Shown here piece by piece: positions 36,766-48,845 of a stretch of 64,000 bases of DNA. Below the pieces are notes generated by a model that was given only the letters and a program-made list of their open reading frames with translations, was not told the origin of the DNA and made no database searches. How positions within the stretch are numbered: the stretch's first letter is position 1; each line of letters begins with the position of its first letter. The position numbers and the translations under genes were made by a program. The DNA comes from Candidatus Planktophila sp. (GTDB lineage: Bacteria; Actinomycetota; Actinomycetes; Nanopelagicales; Nanopelagicaceae), in the NCBI GenBank assembly GCA_030681675.1, contig JAUXRP010000003.1, forward strand, positions 62,001-126,000, written 5' to 3'.

Positions 36766-38913
36766 TTAATCAGTGACAGAAATACTTAATTCTTCAGCTT
36801 CCTGACTATCTGCATCAATTATCAACTTTGAGGAATTAACTAACTTGCCAGAGAGAATCTTCATGGCAATATCATCGCCTATGGCTTTTTGAATAAGTCG
36901 CCGTAGAGGTCGAGCGCCATAAATCGGATCAAAGCCATGCACAACCAGCCAATCTTTTGCCACTGGAGTTAACTCAAGAACGATGTCTCTGTCTTTTAAT
37001 CTAACCTCAAGATTATGAATTAGATTATCTGCAATGGCAGCAATATCTTTTCGTCCAAGTGAATTAAATATCACTATGTCATCAATGCGATTTAAGAACT
37101 CTGGCTTAAAGTGTTTTCTTAGAACTTCATTGACGGATTTCTCTTGTTCTTGGCGAGAAACTTCAGCATCTGCCAAATAAGAAGAACCTAAGTTTGAGGT
37201 CATGATGATGATGGAATTGCGAAAATCAACGGTACGCCCCTGACCATCGGTTAAACGGCCATCGTCAAAGACCTGAAGTAATAAATCAAATACTTCAGGG
37301 TGTGCCTTTTCGACCTCATCTAAAAGGATGACAGAGTACGGACGGCGACGTACAGCTTCGGTTAATTGACCACCTTCTTCGTAACCAACATAGCCTGGAG
37401 GTGCACCCACCAACCTGGAGACAGAAAATTTCTCTCCATACTCACTCATATCAATTCGAACCATTGCCCGTTCGTCATCAAATAAGAAATATGCCAAGGA
37501 TTTAGCAAGTTCGGTTTTACCCACGCCAGTTGGTCCAAGAAATAAAAAAGATCCTGTAGGGCGATTGGGATCAGAGATACCTGCCCTAGAACGGCGAATG
37601 GCATCGGCAACAGATTTAATTGCACTCATCTGTCCAATAACTCGTTTTTCCAACTCTTGCTCTAAATCCAAAAGCCTCTGGCTATCTGCTTGAAGTAGGC
37701 GGCCAACTGGAATTTTCGTCCAGGCAGAGATAACTTCAGCGATGTCATCTGAGGTGACCTCCTCTTTTACCATTGCAGAGGCCGAATCCATGGAGGCGCG
37801 TGTAGCAGCAAGCTCGTTTTCAATTTCGCGGATACGGCCATACATCAATCGAGCGGCATGTTCGAGATTGCCTTCTCTTTGAGCTCGCTCGGCTTCAACT
37901 CTGGATTTATCAAGCTCTTCGGTTAGATAGCCAATTCGATCTAGCTGCTTTTTCTCACTCCCCCATTTCTCGCTTAACTCTTCAAGATTTACTTCATTCT
38001 CCTTGAGCTCGCTACGCAAGTCTTTAAGTCTTGCACGTGAAGCCTCGTCTTTCTCTTTGGCTAAACCAAACTCCTCCATACGCAATCTATCTACGGCTCT
38101 TTGTAATTGATCGATCTCTTCAGGGGATGAATCAATCTCCATCCGTAAACGAGATGCCGCTTCATCCACTAAATCAATGGCTTTATCTGGTAAAAAGCGA
38201 TGAGTGATATAGCGCTCTGAAAGAGTTGCCGCAGCCACAAGGGCACTATCACTTATGACAATTTTATGGTGAGCTTCATACTTTTCGCGAAGCCCGCGTA
38301 AAATTGCAATTGTGTCTTCAACACTTGGTTCTCCAACAAGGACCTGTTGGAAGCGGCGCTCCAAGGCGGCGTCCTTTTCGATGTATTGACGGTATTCATC
38401 AAGGGTTGTTGCACCAATCATGTGTAATTCCCCGCGTGCCAAAAGTGGCTTCAACATATTCCCAGCATCAAGTGCGCCTGGCATTGCGCCAGCCCCGACA
38501 ACGGTGTGTAGTTCATCGATAAAAGTGATTACCTGACCTTCAGATGCTTTAATTTCATCGAGAACCGCCTTTAAACGCTCCTCAAATTCACCACGATATT
38601 TTGCCCCAGCAACTATGGAGCTAAGATCAATTGAGACAACTTTTTTATTTTTTAATCCAGTAGGAACATCGCCAGCAGCAATTCGAAGTGCTAATCCTTC
38701 AACAATCGCAGTCTTTCCTGTGCCTGGCTCACCTATTAGTACTGGGTTGTTTTTTGTCCGGCGCGACAAAACTTGAATCACTCTTCGGACCTCATTATCC
38801 CGCCCGATGACAGGATCTAACTTGCCATCGCGTGCACGCTGCGTTAAATCAATTCCATACTGATCGAGAGCGGATCTCTCCTCTGTCTCGTTGGGATTAT
38901 TGCTCGGTCCCAT
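36766..38913 (-). CDS. clpB: Chaperone ClpB lacking the N-terminal domain
   Basis: This AAA+ disaggregase works with DnaK. The 715-residue product has NBD1 (Walker A GEPGTGKT near residue 61), the coiled-coil middle domain (about 245-370, containing [21 protein letters not shown]) and NBD2 (Walker A GPTGVGKT, plus [11 protein letters not shown]). The first residues are followed directly by [10 protein letters not shown], where full ClpB is at about residue 150. The mobile N-domain is thus absent and no upstream frame supplies it. The gene lies alone; a SigH-like promoter is possible upstream. Confidence 0.95.
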
Positions 38914-38962
38914 GTTTTTCTCCTATACGCAGCTCCGCTTTATCACGATGGTCAGCTGTTTT

Positions 38963-38989
38963 AACACAAAGTTATGCTTTCTTTATTCC
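38963..38989 (-). promoter_or_regulatory. Candidate SigH/SigR-type promoter for clpB
   Basis: Read on the minus strand, GGAATA (complement of 38984-38989) is followed by GTT (complement of 38963-38965). About 20 bases separate GGAA from GTT, near the GGAA-N18-20-GTT spacing of actinobacterial oxidative/heat sigma factors. It lies 50-76 bases before the clpB ATG. No HspR (HAIR) palindrome was found. Confidence 0.35.
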
Positions 38990-39054
38990 AAGTACTAGGG
39001 AGCCAGCCCTCTTAGATTAAGAAATGAGCAACGCGAAGGGAACTGCTACTTCAC

Positions 39055-39516
39055 TCACATAGTGATGATGATTTTGCCTTGGGCATGTCCTCTCTAGTCA
39101 ACTTGGCGATAAAGAACACCGCCTTCTGACTACTAGGCAGTGCCGCTAGGCGTACTTTGAGCATGTGGGGTTACGGTCCAGCAAAACCATTGCCTTTTGC
39201 TGCTCCAACTATGACAATGGTCGCATCCTTGTTGAGTATGCGTCTTATCTCGGACCATGATTTACTCCCAGCGTTATCGAGCATCAAGTCATAACGCTGC
39301 CCACTTTGGGTGAAGTCCTCCTTCGTGTAGTCAATGACGTGATCGGCGCCAAGTGATCGCACGAGATTGACATTTCTAGTGCTGCACACACCGGTTACCT
39401 CCGACCCGAAGGCTTTAGCAAACTGCACCGCAAAGATGCCGACGCCTCCTGAAGCGCCGTTAATCAATACCTTATCTCCCGGGCGAACCGTAAGTGTTGC
39501 AAACTACTGCTCTCAT
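39055..39516 (-). pseudogene. Decayed MDR-family quinone oxidoreductase, tandem copy of the upstream gene
   Basis: It starts at an ATG (39516) that overlaps the stop of the intact MDR gene (ATGA) and reads [12 protein letters not shown], parallel to MRAVVFRKYGNP of that gene. The next recognisable piece, in another frame, is [16 protein letters not shown] and the NAD(P)-binding half, so the catalytic N-domain is deleted. After NGFAGP an in-frame TAA interrupts sequence that goes on HMLKVRLAALPSSQKAVFF. A final fragment GHAQGKIIITM then stop (39055) is the family C-terminus in yet another frame. Two deletions and a nonsense codon make function very unlikely. Confidence 0.88.
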
Positions 39517-40490
39517 ACGCTCAAATCTTTTCTTAGGTTGCTACAAACCGTTAGAACTACGTTTCCCGTTTTCTGTTCCGTTTCCACGTAGCGGGTCGCC
39601 TCGACCACATCCTCAATCGGATATAGCCGGTCGATGACCGCCCGATATTTGCCGGCATCTATTAAATCTTTGAGCAGAAAGAGGTCCTCTCTTCGGTACG
39701 TACCAATTCCGAGTGTTGCCTTCTTTTTTCCAAACCACCGAGTCAATAGAGCCAGAATGGGAACGTGATACATGAATCCGAGATCGGCGGTAATGTATCT
39801 CCCCCTCGGTTTTAGCGAGTGTCGAGCTCTTCGAAACGAGTGCTTTCCGACCGCGTCAAAAATTACGTCATACGTTTTCCCGTTTTTAGTGAAATCATCC
39901 TTTAAATAGTCAATTGCTTCATCGGCACCAAGTAAGTACATGAGCTCAATGTTTTTAGTGTTGCACACCGCAGTGACATGGATCCCAAAATGCCTAGCCA
40001 GTTGTATAGCCGCCGTCCCGATAGATCCAGAGGCACCGTAGACGAGAATGTTCTTTCCCGTCCAATCTGCCGGTTTCAGACAGGTCAATGCAAGAAGTGC
40101 CCCATCACAAACGGCAGCAGCCTCTTCAAAACTCATACTCTCGGGTTTGTGGGCCAGCACTCCACTTTCAGGGACACAGACAAACTCCGCATTGGCTCCC
40201 CCTTTGATACCGAATGCCTCGTCACCCACCCGAAATTTGAGCACATCCGCGCCAACTTCTTCTATTACCCCCGCAAACTCCATACCCGATATCGACCTTT
40301 TCGGCCGGAGCAAGCCAGTGAAAACACGGGAAAAGAAATATTCAGAGCTGCGCAGGCCGGTATCAGATCGAGTAATAGTTGTGGCATGAACTTTGATAAG
40401 GACCTCGTTTTCTTTAGGCAATGGTCGCTCAACTTCTTCAAGGTGTAGAACATCCGGATTCCCGTATTTCCTGAAAACTACTGCTCTCAT
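39513..40490 (-). CDS. NAD(P)-dependent MDR oxidoreductase (quinone reductase-like, zinc-free)
   Basis: With the ATG at 40490 (preceded by AGAGGTG eight bases up) the product is 325 residues. It has a GroES-like N-domain and a Rossmann fold with ILVYGASGSIGTAAIQLAR (about residues 148-166) and LGADEAIDYLKDDF, as in zinc-free quinone oxidoreductases. No zinc-binding Cys cluster is present. The C-terminal tail (KTGNVVLTV) is standard. It starts four bases after the Nudix-regulator stop and overlaps the decayed copy, so the three form one operon. Substrate unknown; a role in quinone or aldehyde detoxification is only inferred. Confidence 0.88.
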   Translation of the reverse strand: MRAVVFRKYGNPDVLHLEEVERPLPKENEVLIKVHATTITRSDTGLRSSEYFFSRVFTGLLRPKRSISGMEFAGVIEEVGADVLKFRVGDEAFGIKGGANAEFVCVPESGVLAHKPESMSFEEAAAVCDGALLALTCLKPADWTGKNILVYGASGSIGTAAIQLARHFGIHVTAVCNTKNIELMYLLGADEAIDYLKDDFTKNGKTYDVIFDAVGKHSFRRARHSLKPRGRYITADLGFMYHVPILALLTRWFGKKKATLGIGTYRREDLFLLKDLIDAGKYRAVIDRLYPIEDVVEATRYVETEQKTGNVVLTVCSNLRKDLSV

Positions 40491-40494
40491 CAAT

Positions 40495-41250
40495 TCACCT
40501 CTGTTTCTGGTTTCGTTGTGGATATTGAATTGGACTTCCGTGTTTCCACGCCCGCCCAGCACGAAACAACTCCGCAGGTTTGCCTCCAGTGGAACCAGAT
40601 TGAGCCCGACGTCCGGTTGGAATCACCCACCCTTTCTCCGCAACTATGCTCCGCCGAAAGTTAGCGGCATCGAGCTGCACCCCCCAGACCGCCTCATATA
40701 CTGCCCGTAGTTCAGCCAAAGTAAATGTTGTTCCAATGAACGCCGTCGCGACACCCGACACTTCGAGCTCGACACGGACGCGCTCAACCGCATCACGCAC
40801 AATCTGTAAATGATCAAAGGCCAACTCGACTCTTCCGTTAAGCACATCGGAGACTGGAATCAGACAGGCATCCGCTGCGTCCGAACCCGCCACGACCGCT
40901 CCTACGTCACGGAGCACAGCAAGATACGCCACTGTCACGACGTTCATTCGAGGATCACGGCCAGGATCACCGTAAGCACCAAACTGAGTCAACAATCTTG
41001 CGGCATCGACACCGGTCTCTTCGGTCAACTCGCGCTTGGCTGCTGCGTCCAGCGTTTCGGTAGGTCGTTTGAAACCACCCGGAATTGCCCACACACCCTC
41101 GAACGGCGCTTGCCCTCGACGTACGAGCAACACATGCAGCACGCCTTCGGACATGGTCAGAATCGCCACATCCACCGTCACCGCGAACGGAGGGAACTGC
41201 GTCGGGTCGTAATCAACCAGAGTCTCGCTACCAAGTGTTTTAGTCTTCAT
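40495..41250 (-). CDS. NrtR-like transcriptional regulator (Nudix domain plus winged helix)
   Basis: With the ATG at 41250 the product is 251 residues. The N-terminal Nudix domain shows GGFKRPTETLDAAAKRELTEETG, close to the Nudix box. The C-terminal winged helix reads FTLAELRAVYEAVWG and NFRRSIVAEKGW, then GKPAELFR, as in NrtR-type regulators that sense ADP-ribose-like ligands. It is GC-rich (bases 40861-40920 are 41/60 G+C) compared with flanking genes. A perfect palindrome lies just upstream. Likely a local repressor for itself and the MDR genes; the ligand is not known. Confidence 0.85.
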   Translation of the reverse strand: MKTKTLGSETLVDYDPTQFPPFAVTVDVAILTMSEGVLHVLLVRRGQAPFEGVWAIPGGFKRPTETLDAAAKRELTEETGVDAARLLTQFGAYGDPGRDPRMNVVTVAYLAVLRDVGAVVAGSDAADACLIPVSDVLNGRVELAFDHLQIVRDAVERVRVELEVSGVATAFIGTTFTLAELRAVYEAVWGVQLDAANFRRSIVAEKGWVIPTGRRAQSGSTGGKPAELFRAGRAWKHGSPIQYPQRNQKQR

Positions 41251-41266
41251 GACTCTTACGGTACCC

Positions 41267-41297
41267 AAAGGTTATAGTCTTGTCAACCATAACCTTT
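41267..41297. promoter_or_regulatory. Operator-like palindrome upstream of the Nudix regulator
   Basis: AAAGGTTAT (41267-41275) and ATAACCTTT (41289-41297) are perfect inverted repeats of 9 bp around a 13-bp spacer. It lies 17-47 bases upstream of the regulator start. This is the expected position and size for an autoregulatory operator. Confidence 0.65.
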
Positions 41298-41420
41298 CAG
41301 CCAACTATTGAGCTCAAGTTCCACAAATGAGTCCTGCTAGTTGGCATAAACAATATGAGGAGTTAATTGATACCCTTCTATAGTGTTAATTCTGGAGAAT
41401 TAGAAGCAATCGGAAAGGTT

Positions 41421-43181
41421 TCAATCCACATTGTTGGATAATCCTAGTTCGATTTTTACCAGAACCATTTTCAATTTGAGAAGTAACGTATTCCTCTTAG
41501 AGACAATTTCCTCTTCCGTGAGATTAGGCGAATCCGCCAACCATTTTGAGAAATTAATTAGTTCTGCTCCCTCTTTTTTTAGTGTGTAGGAGGCAATTGC
41601 ACCTCCCATTTCGTCAGCAATTTCTTGGAGTTCATCAAGTGGAGCATTTGTAATTGACTCGATAGCTTTTTCTAGGACTGGCAGGCGGCGCTCCTGAATA
41701 AGTTGATCCATTCCTCTTACATAGACTGGTAGTTCAATATGCACAGTTGTTCCGATATTAATCTCCGATTCAACTTCTATTCGTCCTCCATGTTGTTCGA
41801 CTATTTTCTTGACAATCGACAATCCAAGACCGGTACCTGGGATTTGAGCATGAACAGCGCTTTCTGATCGAAAGAAACGGTGAAATAACTTTTTCATGTC
41901 TTCGGCAGATATACCCATGCCGTGATCGGAGACGCTCACACGTACAAACTTCGCACCGGTCTTATCAAAAATATTGACTATTCCAACGAATATTTTTGAA
42001 TTTCTAGGGCTAAATTTGACCGAGTTCTGGAATAGATTAATAAAAACCTGAGAAATTTGACCCCTGTTTCCAGCTATTGACCAGTCGTCATGAGAATTGT
42101 CATATGAATTTTCGGCAACGAATTCTATGGAAATCGCTGCCGCATCCAATGATGGTTGTAAGACAAAGATTGCATCTGCAATTATTTCATCCAACATTAT
42201 ACGTTTGAAAACCTTCGGATTTGCCCCAACTTCTAACTTTGAAATTGTAAGCATGTTCTCTACAAGATCAAGAAGTGACAATAGATTTCGATCAACAATC
42301 TTTAGAAATTTTGCAATCTTAGGGTTCTTCTCTTCGTCGGTTAAATCATTTACCAAACCTAAATATCCTATGATTGATGTCAGAGGAGTGCGAAGTTCGT
42401 GATTAATATTTGAGATGAATTCATTTTTTTCATCATCTAATACCTTTAATTCGGTGATAGCAAGAAGCGCTACCCCTAATTCCGCCCTACTCAAGGCAAG
42501 CTCATCCAGCTGAGTTTTTATTGAATTTTGAATTGACTTGTACCGAGCTGAAAAAGAAGCACCCACCCAAGAAATCAAAATAAATATCATGAAAAGAAGA
42601 AGAAAGCGAAGCCATAGATTTCTTGTGGTGATTTTTTCACGTTCCATCGTAACTTCTCTTAATTTAACTTCAATATTTCTTTGAAATGAAATGACTAACT
42701 GTGTGGCAAATTCTGCAATTTTTTCTGAAATGGGCTCGATTTGGGCACGGGTTGAAGCTTGTATTTGGTCAGTCAGAAAGCCTTGTGGTGATCTTTGAAT
42801 GATTACATCAATCTCTTTTAGAGCTTGAAGAAATAAAGGATCTACAAGACCACTAAGGGTCATGCCGTTTGAATCAGTTGCATATAAGTGTTTGGTGAGT
42901 ATGTCCCGTGAAGCTTCCACACTACTTTTGGGCAAGGCGCCCTGACTCCATTGTTTGATTTCAACTATGTACTCAAGCGCCTCACGCTGAGTGGAAATGA
43001 TTGAATCTGAGGATTTTTCCGCAGCTGTCAAAATCACACTTTGTTTTGCTGATACTTGAGATGCGTTAAACGTAGAAAACGTCATTGCTATAAGTACTAG
43101 CAAAGTTAAAAATGCGAATAATTTTTGCCAATTTGAAAGGTGGAATGAATACTCACCGGATGGAGTTTTTAATTGAGTCAC
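41421..43181 (-). CDS. Membrane sensor histidine kinase with C-terminal helical extension
   Basis: The 586-residue product has membrane helix 1 (about 20-40), an extracytoplasmic helical sensor region (about 41-188), membrane helix 2 (about 190-210) and a HisKA domain with H-box NHELRTPLTS (phospho-His261). The HATPase domain is complete (NLFQNSVKFS, DHGMGIS, GTGLGLSIVKKI). About 95 extra helical residues follow (LPVLEKAIESITNAPL...), not part of a standard kinase and perhaps an Hpt-like or dimer module. The start is GTG. No response regulator is adjacent. The RBS position is filled by a run of ten G. Confidence 0.9.
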   Translation of the reverse strand: MTQLKTPSGEYSFHLSNWQKLFAFLTLLVLIAMTFSTFNASQVSAKQSVILTAAEKSSDSIISTQREALEYIVEIKQWSQGALPKSSVEASRDILTKHLYATDSNGMTLSGLVDPLFLQALKEIDVIIQRSPQGFLTDQIQASTRAQIEPISEKIAEFATQLVISFQRNIEVKLREVTMEREKITTRNLWLRFLLLFMIFILISWVGASFSARYKSIQNSIKTQLDELALSRAELGVALLAITELKVLDDEKNEFISNINHELRTPLTSIIGYLGLVNDLTDEEKNPKIAKFLKIVDRNLLSLLDLVENMLTISKLEVGANPKVFKRIMLDEIIADAIFVLQPSLDAAAISIEFVAENSYDNSHDDWSIAGNRGQISQVFINLFQNSVKFSPRNSKIFVGIVNIFDKTGAKFVRVSVSDHGMGISAEDMKKLFHRFFRSESAVHAQIPGTGLGLSIVKKIVEQHGGRIEVESEINIGTTVHIELPVYVRGMDQLIQERRLPVLEKAIESITNAPLDELQEIADEMGGAIASYTLKKEGAELINFSKWLADSPNLTEEEIVSKRNTLLLKLKMVLVKIELGLSNNVD

Positions 43182-43185
43182 TGAT

Positions 43186-43195
43186 CCCCCCCCCC
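43186..43195 (-). repeat. Homopolymer of ten G at the kinase ribosome-binding site
   Basis: On the coding strand the order is AATT, ten G, ATCA, GTG start. The tract occupies exactly the Shine-Dalgarno position, four bases before the start codon. Tracts of this length are prone to slippage, and also to sequencing error. Confidence 0.9.
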
Positions 43196-43305
43196 AATTT
43201 TCTCCACCGTGAGATACTAAACCTTAATTCCTATTTTTAGTGGAATCACTCTTAACCGGTGAGGTTACTTCGACTGCAAGGCTTTTTCTAGGGGATGAGT
43301 ACCAG

Positions 43306-43737
43306 TTAAGCTTCGGCACTCTTTCTTCGGATAACGGTTTTGAATTTCAGATTATGCATCTCGGCGATCGACTTAATGGATTTCGAGATTTCCCCTATGT
43401 CAAAGTCATAATCAATCTTCACCCCGTTTGCTCCAATGAAAACCCCCTTAACGTGACGTGAGAGCGTTTTGCCCGATTGAAATGATGATTCAGAGCTAGA
43501 ACCAAACGAAAAACCCTTGCTCTTTTCCGCAGTTTTTTCAAAAAGAAAAATTGTCTTCTCCTTTTCATCAAAAAGAACGGCATTTTCATAGGTGATCGAC
43601 TTATCACCTGAGCCACTCTTGGCATCGAGCAGTTGGCAATTAACGGTGATGTCGGAGGCTCCTCCACGTATTGGATCTAAACCTAACGCCTGCAGTTTTT
43701 CAAAGATTTCTTGTACTATCTCTGTTTTCATACTCAT
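43306..43737 (-). CDS. Hypothetical protein
   Basis: A 143-residue protein without signal peptide or membrane helix. The first part (VQEIFEKLQALGLDPIRGGASDITVNCQLLDA) is mixed alpha/beta. The middle is Ser/Gly-rich (FSFGSSSESSFQSG), and the end (KGVFIGANGVKIDYDFDIGEISKSIKSIAEMHNLKFK) looks like a beta hairpin plus amphipathic helix. I do not recognise a family. It starts 3 bases downstream of the fibronectin-type gene on the same strand and is 124 bases before the kinase gene. The reverse-strand frame here is a shadow. Confidence 0.65.
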   Translation of the reverse strand: MSMKTEIVQEIFEKLQALGLDPIRGGASDITVNCQLLDAKSGSGDKSITYENAVLFDEKEKTIFLFEKTAEKSKGFSFGSSSESSFQSGKTLSRHVKGVFIGANGVKIDYDFDIGEISKSIKSIAEMHNLKFKTVIRRKSAEA

Positions 43738-43740
43738 GTC

Positions 43741-44874
43741 CTAACTTTTAGTAACGACTCGAAATATTTTCGAACTTCTACTCTCTTTGCCAGCAAATAC
43801 AACATAAACAGAAAGGTTATAAACTTGCTTAGCCTCTAAATTCTTTAATGTGCATGTGAACTGCTTGGCTGAGGTTCGACACTCGTGGATTAACTGGACA
43901 CTTCCCCCTAGTGCGCTTGCGCGATACCCGAGAATTTTCAATCCGCCTGTGTGTTTTGGTGGGCTCCAGGAAATTCGGATCGCTTTTGAGAGTGAAACAA
44001 CTTTGACCTTTTGTGGAGGATCTGAGTTGGCAGGGTTTCCCGTAGGAATCGGTGTGATATTCGTACCGCCACTCGATGACGAAGTAGCTTTTGCGCTTGC
44101 GGATGCAGATGTACCGGGAGTCGCCTTAGTTGGTGTTGGACTAGCAATAGGTGCTGCAGGAGTTCCTGCAATAATTTTTATCCGGGGAAAAGACGGGAAA
44201 CCTGAACCGAGTGAAGTATATGTTCGAACTTGCGCGTAATAGGTAGCCCCTAATTTTAAGCCGCCGATGAAGCAGCTGCTATCGGTGATAGCGCCGCTCG
44301 TACAAAAACCTGCATATGAACCAACACCAATCTCAGAACCCTTAAATACTTCTGCGGTGTACCAAGAAAATGCCCCCGCTCCAGCACTTGTTAATGGAGT
44401 CCACTTAATCGTAATTAAACCTTTGGCATCACTAGTCGCGCTGACATTGCTTGGAGGTTTTCCAGTTGCACCTGGAGAAATCGACTTTGCTGAACTCGGA
44501 GTTCCAAGCCCAGCGCTATTGCTTGCTATGACATCGACGTAGTACACATTTCCTGAAATTAATCCACTAATGATGCAACCAAATTGGGTCGTGGTGCAGG
44601 AAGCAAAGATCGGCGAATTTGTCGGCGGTGGCAGGCTCCATATTCTCGCTGTGTAATTAAGTAAAGAGTCTCCACCATTCGAGCTTGGAGGATCCCACGT
44701 AATTGCGACTTGATTTATATCACTCATCGCCTCTACATACTGAGGTGCTGTTGGTGGATTGGCACCGTAGGAAAGTGGAGATTGAATTACGCCAATTCCA
44801 AGTGATATCAATAAAACAAATGTTAAGTAAAACTTATGAGACATCACGTGTTTACTCAAGGAGATATTTAACAT
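43741..44874 (-). CDS. Secreted fibronectin type III repeat protein
   Basis: With the ATG at 44874 (GGGGG eight bases upstream) the product is 377 residues. A hydrophobic signal segment (FYLTFVLLISLGIGVIQ, cleavage near SYGA) is followed by two fibronectin type III modules (APQYVEAMSDINQVAITWDPPSSNGG and KPPSNVSATSDAKGLITIKW). A Pro/Ala/Ser/Thr-rich linker comes next (about 240-285), then a third module (PPQKVKVVSLSKAIRISWSPP). Regularly placed Cys pairs lie in each module. Such proteins are usually surface or extracellular binders; the ligand is unknown. Two in-frame starts lie just upstream. Confidence 0.88.
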   Translation of the reverse strand: MLNISLSKHVMSHKFYLTFVLLISLGIGVIQSPLSYGANPPTAPQYVEAMSDINQVAITWDPPSSNGGDSLLNYTARIWSLPPPTNSPIFASCTTTQFGCIISGLISGNVYYVDVIASNSAGLGTPSSAKSISPGATGKPPSNVSATSDAKGLITIKWTPLTSAGAGAFSWYTAEVFKGSEIGVGSYAGFCTSGAITDSSCFIGGLKLGATYYAQVRTYTSLGSGFPSFPRIKIIAGTPAAPIASPTPTKATPGTSASASAKATSSSSGGTNITPIPTGNPANSDPPQKVKVVSLSKAIRISWSPPKHTGGLKILGYRASALGGSVQLIHECRTSAKQFTCTLKNLEAKQVYNLSVYVVFAGKESRSSKIFRVVTKS

Positions 44875-45150
44875 CGCCATCACCCCCTATTGAGAGATGA
44901 AAAAAATCTTCACTTTTGATGGTACAACTGACGCTCTCCATAGTCAGCAAGGTGAACAAATTTTCTACTCTTGTTCTGTGGATTTGAGTGCCGGTTCTCA
45001 TGAATCAGACTTCTTTTCTCCTTCTAGAGCCATTCAGCGGCCTTTAATGCCACAGGAAGGCTTGAGGAATCTCTCAGGATAGACACAAAAAAGAAACTTA
45101 CTTTGTGGACACGGGCCAGTTGGGCCTGAATTGTTAATGAGGAGCAAATC

Positions 45151-45795
45151 ATGAAGGTAAAAAGAGTTTTAGGTGTAGCCCTACTGGCCTCCGGTTTGAT
45201 GGCCGGTTCAGTAGCTGCAGTACAGGCTGATTCTACGCCACTGCCAGCGGCTACCAATTCAGCTGCTTATCAAGCAGCTTTAGCACAGTATCAAATTGAC
45301 ATGATGAAGTATCGAATAGAAGTAATTAAGATTGCAATCGCTAATCGCGTCGCCATGGATAAGTACAACACCGAGTGGCAGATCGCAGTAGCAAAATATT
45401 ACGCCGATTGGAAAGTTGCAATCGAGCAGTTCCAAGCTCTCCGCGCAGCATATGAAGCAAAGATTGCACCAGCCATTGCCGCACGCAAAGCTGCGATTAT
45501 GAAAGCGGATGCTGATTTTCTAGCTGCTGTTGGAGTTGTTGGTGCAACTGGTGCCCAACTTGAGTTAGCTGTTAAAGCTCATCACCAAGCCATGGAGGCC
45601 GCTATGAATTCATTTAAAGCAGCGGTAGCAACATTCGGTGATGAACCAGTAAAACCAATTAAGCCAGCTGAACTTACTAAGCCACCTGTTCCAGTAAAGG
45701 GCGTAGCACCAGTAAAGCCAGTAGCACCTGGAAAGCCTGCCAAGGCAGAAAAACCTGAAAAGACTCCAAAGCCTGACAAAACTCCAAAGCCATAA
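45151..45795 (+). CDS. Secreted coiled-coil protein with Pro/Lys-rich tail
   Basis: The 214-residue product has a signal peptide (1-26, ending VQADS), a helical region rich in Ala, Tyr and Lys (about 35-165) and a tail of Pro/Lys repeats (KPVKPIKP, EKPEKTPKPDKTPKP). A GAGGAG RBS lies before the ATG. The tail resembles cell-wall spanning or wall-binding linkers of Gram-positive proteins, which is inference. A perfect 15-bp terminator follows. I do not recognise the helical domain. The preceding 267-base gap holds no other convincing gene. Confidence 0.8.
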   Translation: MKVKRVLGVALLASGLMAGSVAAVQADSTPLPAATNSAAYQAALAQYQIDMMKYRIEVIKIAIANRVAMDKYNTEWQIAVAKYYADWKVAIEQFQALRAAYEAKIAPAIAARKAAIMKADADFLAAVGVVGATGAQLELAVKAHHQAMEAAMNSFKAAVATFGDEPVKPIKPAELTKPPVPVKGVAPVKPVAPGKPAKAEKPEKTPKPDKTPKP

Positions 45796-45806
45796 TACGT
45801 AATTAA

Positions 45807-45844
45807 CAAAACCCTCGAACCGAATAAATGGTTCGAGGGTTTTG
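45807..45844. terminator. Bidirectional terminator between convergent genes
   Basis: CAAAACCCTCGAACC (45807-45821) and its exact complement (45830-45844) surround an 8-base loop. Both sides are flanked by T-rich or A-rich bases, so it can stop the coiled-coil gene on the plus strand and the dehydrogenase gene on the minus strand. Confidence 0.92.
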
Positions 45845-45857
45845 TTGTGAAGTTAAC

Positions 45858-46658
45858 TTATTGCGCAGTCCATCCACCATCAACCGGGATTGAAACACCA
45901 GTGATGTTATGCGCCGCTTGGGAACATAAGAACACTACAACGGCTCCGATCTCCTCTGGAGTAGACATTCGTTTAGAAGGCTGCTTTTCAGATAATAAAT
46001 CGGCGATACCTGCAGCACGATCACCGTTAAAGATTGCCACGCGGGCTTGAATCTGTGGCTCGATCAATGAAGTTTCTACCCAACCTGGGCAGATCGCATT
46101 TACCGTTACACCACCTGATTCGCGGGTGCCGCTTGCTGCATATTCCAGAGCCGCGGCTTTAGTTAAACCAATTACTCCATGTTTGGCAGAGACGTATGGT
46201 GCCTTTGCAATCGATGCGACTAATCCATGCACCGAGGAGGTATTGATAACTCTGCCATATCCTCGAACCTGCATGTGTGGGAGTAATAAACGCATTGTGT
46301 CAAAATAGGAGGAGAGATTTATAGAAATAATGTCGCTCCATTTTTCGCGAGGCATGTCAGCGATTGGTGCGGTGTGTTGAATGCCAGCGTTGTTACACAG
46401 AATATCTACTGGACCATTATCTAGAACTGCGGCTACTAATGCCTCTGTTGCCGCGCTATCACGAAGATCGCTCACATGTGACTCAACTTTTGGTGCGCCA
46501 GCAGCGCTCACAATAGCCTCAGCCCCCTTAATTGTTTCGATATCTGCAAGGCCATGTAAAACAATCTCAGCGCCTTCGCGAGCAAGGGCAGTGGCAATTC
46601 CTAAGCCAATTCCTTGAAATGAACCCGTAATAAATGCTCGTTTTCCTTTTAAAGTCAT
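45858..46658 (-). CDS. bdhA: D-3-hydroxybutyrate dehydrogenase (short-chain dehydrogenase family)
   Basis: The enzyme oxidises D-3-hydroxybutyrate to acetoacetate with NAD. The 266-residue product has the NAD loop TGSFQGIG (residues 11-18), NNAG (89-92) and the tetrad Asn114, Ser142, Tyr155, Lys159. Residues Gln94, His144 and Lys152 match the substrate-binding set described for Pseudomonas 3-hydroxybutyrate dehydrogenase, which makes the call more specific than for most SDRs. Its ATG overlaps the stop of the hydrolase gene (ATGA). The neighbouring acetoacetyl-CoA synthetase would use its product. Confidence 0.92.
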   Translation of the reverse strand: MTLKGKRAFITGSFQGIGLGIATALAREGAEIVLHGLADIETIKGAEAIVSAAGAPKVESHVSDLRDSAATEALVAAVLDNGPVDILCNNAGIQHTAPIADMPREKWSDIISINLSSYFDTMRLLLPHMQVRGYGRVINTSSVHGLVASIAKAPYVSAKHGVIGLTKAAALEYAASGTRESGGVTVNAICPGWVETSLIEPQIQARVAIFNGDRAAGIADLLSEKQPSKRMSTPEEIGAVVVFLCSQAAHNITGVSIPVDGGWTAQ

Positions 46659-47539
46659 AGTCGATCTCCATAAATTATTTGGGCAACTTTTTCAGCGCCA
46701 AAATGGTCGGTGAACATGTCGTAGTGATTGCAATCTGATAGAAACTCTAGCTTTAACATTGGATACTGCGGAAGCACTGCATTTAATACGTCCAATGGAT
46801 AAAGCCCACCTTCCTCATTCTGCAAACCTCTTTCAGCCTTAATGAATTGTGCTTGCGCAGTTAGACCCTTGAGTGAGCGCACAATTAGGTCATCTCCAAA
46901 TAAATCTCGAGAGTCAGCCTCGACTGCTGCTGGATTTGTTGAAGGCTTTAGGTTTGGTGCGTCGCCTCGAAGGTCATAGTCAACGTACTCATCCATGACC
47001 GGTGACCAACCTTTGGAAAATGCGGGTTGAGACCGCCAGAAATCTCGATAGGCATCTTTAGATTCGAAGACCAAAGCAAGGCGTGCAAGGGCTGGTCCTA
47101 ACACAAAAGGTAAAACCTGCTCCACATTCATCCCAGGAGGTAACGGCAATGGAATCCCTCCATCTGCAAATACAACTTCTCCGATTAACTCTGGGTGTAA
47201 ACCAACTAAAGCCGCTGCTACAAATCCACCCATTGAATGACCAATCACATCAGGTTTTTTCAACTGAAGAAACTCTATGACGGCAGCCATGTCGTGTGCA
47301 TGCTGGGCCATCCCAAATGGTTCTGGCAGAGTATTTGAATCCCCGCGGCCTCGCAAATCAACTGCATACACGGCTTTTCCGCGGGCAATTAGTTCATCGG
47401 CAAAGAGCTGAAATGCACGATTTGATGATGTCACTCCATGAATCAAGAGGACTGGATCTCCCACTCCATCTCCATATCGAAAGACTGCGAGTGATCCACC
47501 TGTGACCGGGACGAGAATGCGCTGAGTTGGTAAAGACAT
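46655..47539 (-). CDS. Alpha/beta hydrolase
   Basis: With the ATG at 47539 the product is 294 residues. The oxyanion HG is at residues 34-35, the nucleophile elbow is GHSMGG (Ser102) and a His near the C-terminus (SDCNHYDMFTDHF) completes the triad. No signal peptide. An in-frame TTG at 47566 is a weaker start. It is translationally coupled to bdhA, so cleavage of a 3-hydroxybutyrate ester or oligomer inside the cell is a reasonable inference, but the substrate is not shown by sequence. Divergent from the ABC transporter genes. Confidence 0.85.
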   Translation of the reverse strand: MSLPTQRILVPVTGGSLAVFRYGDGVGDPVLLIHGVTSSNRAFQLFADELIARGKAVYAVDLRGRGDSNTLPEPFGMAQHAHDMAAVIEFLQLKKPDVIGHSMGGFVAAALVGLHPELIGEVVFADGGIPLPLPPGMNVEQVLPFVLGPALARLALVFESKDAYRDFWRSQPAFSKGWSPVMDEYVDYDLRGDAPNLKPSTNPAAVEADSRDLFGDDLIVRSLKGLTAQAQFIKAERGLQNEEGGLYPLDVLNAVLPQYPMLKLEFLSDCNHYDMFTDHFGAEKVAQIIYGDRL

Positions 47540-47681
47540 GGAGTGATTCTGCACCTTTTTCCACAAAATTGTTATCTAACTGTAGTCAAAGAGGTGATCA
47601 ACTTCTAGGCCGAGCAGATAGATTTATCTTAAGCAAGCCAACCCTCGATGTGGCTGGCATTATCAACAAGGAGATCACACT

Positions 47682-48845
47682 ATGAGCAAGCGCTCACTAG
47701 CACGATTGGGAGTAGCCGCACTCTCTCTAGCTGTCATCATGCCAAACATGGCGCCAGCACAGGCTGCAAAAGAAATTAAAATTGGTGTCATTACTTCATC
47801 ATCAGGACCACTTGGTTCATATGGTCTTGCATATAACGATGGACTCGAATGGGGTCTGAACTATTACACAGGCGGCAAGATGTCGATAAACGGTGCGAAG
47901 CTCGTTGTGACGACTAAAGATGATGCCGCAGATCCTGCATCTGCTACTGCATCCTTCAAAGAGATGGTCGGTAACGGAACTAAAATAATCGTTGGTACTG
48001 CTTCATCAGGTGTTGCATTAACACTTGGACCACTAGCTGCACAGAACAAAATTTTGTACATTTCTGGTCCAGCCAAGAACGATTTAGTTACATCAGCTGC
48101 TAATAAGTATGTTTTCCGATCAGGTAACTCATCGACCCAAGATTTAGCACCACTTGCTGGCGTTAAGCCAATCAAAGGTAAGAAAGTAATTCTCTTCGTT
48201 GAAGATAATGCTTTCGGTGCTGGAAACATCGCAGCTGCACGTGCATTGATGGGACCAAAGGGTGCTTTGTTTGAAGAGATAAAAGTTCCAACATCTACAT
48301 CTGACTTCACACCTTTTGCGAAGAAAGCTGCCGATGCAAATGGCACATATATATTCATCGCTTGGTCAAATGCTCTAACTGCTGGTGCAATGTTGACTTC
48401 CCTTAAAGTTCAAGGTGCTTTCGCTAAGTCTCGACCAATTACAGGCCTTGCAGGAGCAGCGACCTATAACATCTACGGAACTCTCTTTGAAGGCACCAAT
48501 GCAATCATGACAAATAGCTACTTTGCTGGTGCCTCGAAATCACAGGCCTCCAATGCAATGGCAGCATGGTTTGCTGTCAACAAGAAGACACAGGATCTCT
48601 TCACCTCAACTGGAGCAGATGCTGCCAAGATGATTGTCCGCGCACTAACTGGTAACCCATCTCAGGACGTAGATAAAATGATTTCCAACCTTGAGGGCTA
48701 CTCATGGGTTGGTGTCAAGGGCTTTATGACTGTCAATGCCTCGAACCACCTCCTTATTCAGCCAATGTTCCTAGTTGGTCTGACAAAGACTGCAACTGGA
48801 TATGTTCCATTATTGCAAAAAACAATCTCAGGAGTAGGCAAGTAA
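47682..48845 (+). CDS. Liv-type ABC transporter, substrate-binding protein
   Basis: The 387-residue product has a signal peptide (1-29, ending PAQAA) without a lipobox Cys. A type I periplasmic-binding fold follows (KEIKIGVITSSSGPLGSYGLAYNDG, then VGTASSGVALTLGPLAAQNKI and KKVILFVEDNAFGAG), as in LivJ and the Periplasmic_binding_6 family. An AAGGAG RBS is eight bases before the ATG. It is the first gene of the import operon and is followed by a hairpin that probably keeps its mRNA in excess. The substrate may be a short hydroxy- or keto-acid rather than an amino acid, judged only from context. Confidence 0.9.
   Translation: MSKRSLARLGVAALSLAVIMPNMAPAQAAKEIKIGVITSSSGPLGSYGLAYNDGLEWGLNYYTGGKMSINGAKLVVTTKDDAADPASATASFKEMVGNGTKIIVGTASSGVALTLGPLAAQNKILYISGPAKNDLVTSAANKYVFRSGNSSTQDLAPLAGVKPIKGKKVILFVEDNAFGAGNIAAARALMGPKGALFEEIKVPTSTSDFTPFAKKAADANGTYIFIAWSNALTAGAMLTSLKVQGAFAKSRPITGLAGAATYNIYGTLFEGTNAIMTNSYFAGASKSQASNAMAAWFAVNKKTQDLFTSTGADAAKMIVRALTGNPSQDVDKMISNLEGYSWVGVKGFMTVNASNHLLIQPMFLVGLTKTATGYVPLLQKTISGVGK

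Follow-up and report, generated by a model that had tools for sequence, protein, structure and literature searches.

Why should an uninterrupted run of ten G stand directly in front of the start codon of a sensor kinase, in a genome that is otherwise poor in such runs? The question is raised by a 64-kb stretch of the genome of a Candidatus Planktophila species (Nanopelagicales), hereafter the window, whose plus strand carries C10 at positions 43186-43195, that is, G10 on the strand of the kinase gene. As a first-pass annotation of this DNA had described, the tract is preceded by AATT and followed by ATCA and the kinase GTG, with a distance of 4 nt between tract and start codon. On sequence comparison, the G10 tract is the expanded Shine-Dalgarno (SD) core of the kinase. 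The reading favoured here, to which a probability of roughly 0.55 is given, is that this SD of the kinase mRNA has grown by slippage, that its length probably varies in the population and that it tunes kinase output in a graded manner through SD strength. The elements concerned are the following.

41421-43181, minus strand: orphan sensor histidine kinase of 586 amino acids (aa) with HisKA and HATPase_c domains (Pfam PF00512 and PF02518).
43179-43181, minus strand: GTG start codon of the kinase; GTG is also used in the sister species (genome G240), and after one residue both proteins read QLKTPSGE.
43182-43185, minus strand: ATCA spacer from tract to start codon; GATC corresponds to the SD's 3' extension (GGAGGTGATC).
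43186-43195, minus strand: G10 tract, expanded SD core of the kinase; the sister species has GGGGGTGA at the orthologous position.

Read along the minus strand, the leader is TTTAGTAT CTCACG GTGGAGAAAATT GGGGGGGGGG ATCA GTG, the last GTG being the kinase start. The orthologous leader of the sister species, which is the closest relative by kinase gene, reads TTTAGAAT CTCACG ATGGAGAAGAT GGGGGTGA ATTC GTG, so that GGGGGTGA occupies the same place as the tract, with its GGGGG lying 7 nt before the orthologous GTG. Seven nt is also the modal spacing of SD 4-mers in the Planktophila genome. The genome's own 16S rRNA ends in GGATCACCTCCTTTC, with GGATCACCTCCTTT as anti-SD, and the ideal SD is therefore GGAGGTGATC. 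The sister element is a near-perfect SD that matches this anti-SD, while in the window the G10-ATC string holds the same position and has kept the GATC tail of the ideal sequence. A GGAG about 22 nt upstream is beyond usable distance, which agrees with the earlier view that the homopolymer is the sole candidate. At the kinase locus the tract can be compared with one close relative, G10 against a G5 interrupted by T; a contig scan for relatives returned one close match, which seems to be G240 itself, and no second tract length.

The annotation had also called the homopolymer unusual in the window, and this extends well beyond it. The tract is the only run of at least 7 G or C in the 64 kb and the only run of at least 8 G, on either strand, in the whole 1,826,200-base, 46-contig assembly, which places it in the range of uninterrupted G or C (about 8 or more) that is prone to slippage. 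In about 517 kb of the Planktophila genome (G000, contigs C3 and C15), G/C runs of five, six and seven numbered 187, 23 and 3, where neighbour frequencies would predict 294, 62 and 13; runs of ten were expected 0.12 times and observed once. Long G runs are therefore depleted and the G10 tract is exceptional.

Such an exception could arise as an artefact, the real tract being shorter or interrupted, or the poly-G stemming from sequencing chemistry. The genome is indeed a draft metagenome bin, the exact count of ten comes from that assembly alone, and some poly-G at the contig ends of relatives looks artefactual. Nevertheless, the tract lies inside a 239-kb contig and its flanks are homologous on both sides in the sister species. 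Internal runs of 9-14 G were found at similar sites in independent assemblies, including two orthologous loci of the CtaG assembly factor, and a 12-G run is present in a single-contig genome (G184). An artefact is accordingly considered very unlikely.

How tract length might act was approached with a crude model of leader/anti-SD pairing energy, computed register by register with an approximate spacing penalty function. In this model, a good 5-nt spacing was found for each tract length from five G upward. The predicted SD strength rose from -6.1 kcal/mol with 5 G to -8.7 with 8 G and -12.3 with 10 G, the latter at spacing 5, and remained flat at 11-12 G; from 13 G, pairing would spread to badly spaced registers and the good ones would be lost. 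In parallel, over tract lengths of 5 to 14 G the minimum free energy of the leader fold varied only from -10.7 to -11.9 kcal/mol, and no structural switch was predicted. Since strength rises with length while the fold is nearly constant, the model points to graded tuning of strength, with spacing as a weak lever. Spacing as the main lever, which the first-pass annotation had proposed, was consequently abandoned, as a poly-G SD is predicted to pair in every register. Its broader idea survives in part: the tract is an SD and belongs to a length class that slips elsewhere, whereas the role given to SD spacing falls away.

An effect of the tract on transcription, as part of a promoter spacer, was also considered. 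Two further elements bear on this point.

43214-43219, minus strand: putative -10 box TAGTAT (TAGAAT in the sister species); TANNNT at 6 nt from the start is strongly enriched in the genome.
43205-43207, minus strand: upstream GTG exactly 6 nt downstream of the -10 box, with ATG in the sister; probably where the transcript begins, and possibly a leaderless start codon.

As the tract is 18 nt downstream of the putative -10 box, it would be part of the transcribed leader, and a location in the promoter spacer is disfavoured. The -10 motif belongs to a common signature. Of 434 genes, 74 have TANNNT exactly 6 nt before ATG or GTG, compared with 10.6 for each other distance; this amounts to about one gene in six on the two contigs C3 and C15 and indicates that leaderless mRNAs are common in Planktophila. 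The upstream GTG fits this -10/N6 spacing, leaderless starts having the -10 box at 6-7 nt, and is kept as ATG in the sister species; the upstream RTG most likely marks the transcript start.

Taken together, these data suggest the following course of events. The starting point would have been an SD core that was G-rich to begin with (GGGGGTGATC type), in which, as a comparison of two sequences indicates, loss of the interrupting T would have left about seven uninterrupted G that replication slippage could then expand. The 5' end of the kinase mRNA would most likely lie some 26 nt ahead of the kinase GTG, and the tract would be bound by ribosomes in whichever register gives a good spacing. Tract length probably varies in the population because uninterrupted G runs this long slip, and it would tune kinase output gradually via SD strength and not on/off via spacing.

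The upstream GTG allows a different view, in which ribosomes start on a leaderless message at this codon and read through the tract. A candidate reading frame of this kind is present.

43178-43207, minus strand: possible leaderless 9-codon open reading frame (ORF) VEKIGGGDQ running through the tract, whose TGA overlaps the kinase GTG, as given by frame computation.

Tract length would then be a three-phase switch, and at 10 G, with the TGA overlapping the kinase GTG, kinase synthesis would depend on re-initiation. In favour of this view, TANNNT-N6-RTG is a dominant gene-start signature of the genome, with the 74 genes mentioned above; of the 93 sites of this kind with a -10 side not within a called gene, 55 are gene starts; the -10 box and RTG are both conserved in the sister species; and with 11 G an uninterrupted frame leads from the upstream GTG into the kinase. 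The distance from the upstream RTG to the kinase start is 26 nt in the window (TAGTAT-N6-GTG) and 23 nt in the sister (TAGAAT-N6-ATG), which puts the upstream codon out of frame with the kinase by an equal offset in both; in the window a tract of 8 or 11 G would be needed to bring it into frame. The upstream GTG was therefore rejected as the usual start of the kinase at 10 G, and so was its counterpart in the sister. Moreover, the sister has no homopolymer and its upstream ATG is out of frame, so that its kinase has to be initiated at the GTG behind the SD. Among leaderless starts GTG is also scarce (9 of 74), and an RTG at a transcript start can be due to chance. A frame switch is thus judged improbable as the function of the tract.

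Further evidence for the graded SD reading comes from outside the window. All runs of at least 9 G were collected from 296 Nanopelagicales genomes, which gave 55 places; runs at contig ends, where poly-G in relatives is a likely artefact, were excluded from the count, leaving 47 internal runs. By a uniform rule, namely that the start codon of an ORF of at least 100 aa lies between 1 nt before and 12 nt after the run end, 15 of these 47 stand at a same-strand ribosome-binding site, against one in the opposite orientation. For runs of at least 10 G the figure is 10 of 22. In the Planktophila genome, by comparison, ribosome-binding sites account for 9 of 187 runs of five and for none of the 26 runs of six to eight (9/213 in total), and in a sample of other actinobacteria for 1 of 21 long runs. 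A manual count (16/47 against 9/213) gave a Fisher p of about 7e-8, or 0.0014 with related loci collapsed. The genes that follow the tracts encode CtaG (three species, two genera), LuxR-type regulators, two tyrosine integrases, a UbiA prenyltransferase, an acyltransferase-3 protein and the kinase of the window.

At several of these loci, orthologues form a length series. In two species, the ctaG leader reads GAGAATT followed by G13 AAGATAA ATG or by G10 AGATAA ATG, tracts three G apart in front of proteins that are 93% identical, so that length does differ between close relatives at sites of this type. In three other species GAGAATT is followed by TGAGGGGAATTA ATG, TAAGGGGGAATGG ATG or GAGGGAGCA ATG, and the shorter SDs of the series (GAGAATTTGAGGGG, GAGAATTTAAGGGGG and GAGAATTGAGGGAG, just before ATG) are of the AGGGG(G) type. 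LuxR orthologues of 74% identity carry G11 and G9, and the SD tracts of integrase homologues contain G5, G6, G7 and G12. The CtaG, LuxR and integrase series are taken as direct evidence of tract growth from SDs.

Several observations were made at the same loci. In each of two species, G106 (L124, L146) and G114 (L127, L147), two same-family LuxR-type regulators have a poly-G run that touches the start codon or nearly does so, which suggests that this family is a tract hotspot. Tandem tyrosine integrase pairs were found in Planktophila (L080 and L150 in G237:C2; L249 in G028:C104), where one member carries G12 at its ribosome-binding site in G237 and one carries G7 in G028.

Growth from SDs could also be neutral. 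SDs are the one G-rich non-coding element in which homopolymers can grow without breaking a protein, and if any run of at least five G binds the ribosome adequately, length would simply drift and the tract be tolerated instead of selected. In keeping with this neutral explanation, G runs are depleted overall in the genome, most long runs of the order are located at SDs or outside genes, the model predicts a usable register for each length from five G upward, and the sister kinase works with G5. On the other side, certain families carry the tract repeatedly (CtaG in two genera, several LuxR regulators, integrases), beyond what would be expected of drift by itself, and the model predicts a difference of several kcal/mol between 6 and 10 G. 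A tract that is a neutral by-product is possible, though rather unlikely.

Three points weigh against graded tuning of the kinase. The sister species lacks a long tract, hence the tract itself is not conserved at the kinase locus; the pairing energies come from a crude model with an approximate spacing penalty; and mutation alone, with no adaptive role, could account for the enrichment at ribosome-binding sites, runs being seeded by G-rich SDs wherever insertions and deletions are tolerated. A wider proposal is put forward tentatively, namely that slipping poly-G ribosome-binding sites act as translational rheostats throughout Nanopelagicales, in front of regulators, respiratory assembly factors, cell-envelope enzymes and integrases, and that the kinase tract may also sit in the leaderless upstream frame, an added G changing both SD strength and frame. 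Given the recurrence of this placement before other genes of the order, an error-prone repeat at ribosome-binding sites may tune protein amounts across it. If tract length varies in lake populations, this would offer cheap and reversible heterogeneity in signalling and surface genes of abundant bacteria with small genomes.

Homopolymers that control sensor kinases are known from phase-variable systems with coding tracts such as Bordetella BvgS, where length acts by frameshift inside the coding region, whereas the tract of the window lies upstream of the start codon. Among non-coding tracts, the G(8-12) tract upstream of Moraxella catarrhalis uspA1 is described as grading high and low expression and not as all-or-none (PMC7302503). 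The kinase tract resembles it in being poly-G upstream of an ORF; it differs in lying at the SD, downstream of the predicted promoter, with a length effect that is predicted on translation, while that of uspA1 is on mRNA level. In Mycobacterium tuberculosis, also an actinobacterium, the 5' untranslated region of the regulator gene espR holds a poly-G in which one added G raises translation (PMC11898584). Poly-G in the 5' leader of a signalling or regulatory gene is common to both cases, yet the SDs of espR are separate from the homopolymer, whereas the kinase tract is itself the SD. In a third actinobacterium, Bifidobacterium breve, G10 and G11 tracts of pilus genes slip, as maximum depth sequencing revealed (PMC9187656), in line with the earlier statement that tracts of this length slip in other bacteria. 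Both species have a G10 tract; that of B. breve is coding and switches the reading frame, unlike the kinase tract upstream of its start. In the passages considered from these three papers, the tract is itself the SD in none of the cases (PMC7302503, PMC11898584, PMC9187656). In the literature searched, no case of phase variation through a homopolymer at the SD came up, nor did any account of leaderless genes or of phase variation in Nanopelagicales, one paper naming both Planktophila and phase variation having been left unassessed. Grading of expression by poly-G tracts is thus already known, and the new element would be that the tract is the SD itself, slippage and function being proposed here from sequence. 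If true, it would be a clean case of homopolymer growth within the ribosome-binding site itself.

The kinase behind the tract has the HisKA and HATPase_c domains of a two-component sensor histidine kinase. Its description as an orphan is sustained: no adjoining response regulator was found among the listed ORFs at 38000-48000 or in the neighbourhood of the sister gene. Many kinases are orphans, and a missing neighbouring regulator does not remove a kinase from the family. The sister protein is of equal length and identical at 90% of residues. Low dN/dS values between the two genes (0.18 over the whole length, with 0.28 for the sensor half and 0.09 for the catalytic half) show that the kinase is constrained; it is intact and conserved, and presumably functional. 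More distant family members occur across the order, mostly at about 20-35% identity, and those examined in G021 and G010 adjoin an OmpR-type regulator. The genome also has its own paralogue with a regulator partner (G000:C41) and a hybrid kinase with the same sensor domain (47%; G000:C15). The genes around the kinase and its promoter are not the same in the sister species (window 41401-43253 against L069 4858-6708), with a 164-aa gene inserted just upstream and different downstream neighbours, which indicates that the region has been rearranged.

Two other kinds of run were seen in the survey. In the single-contig Planktophila genome G184 (C1:46000-49500, L169), 12 C on the coding strand at about 1793-1804 lie close to the N-terminal end of a frame for an FkbM-like methyltransferase, and the stretch from the previous stop up to these C contains no start codon; this looks like a classical coding-frame contingency tract in the off state. 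Finally, several long G runs stand immediately behind long stretches of A or T (for example A10 G9 or T14 G9; L120, L130, L141, L162), and these are mostly intergenic or at contig ends.
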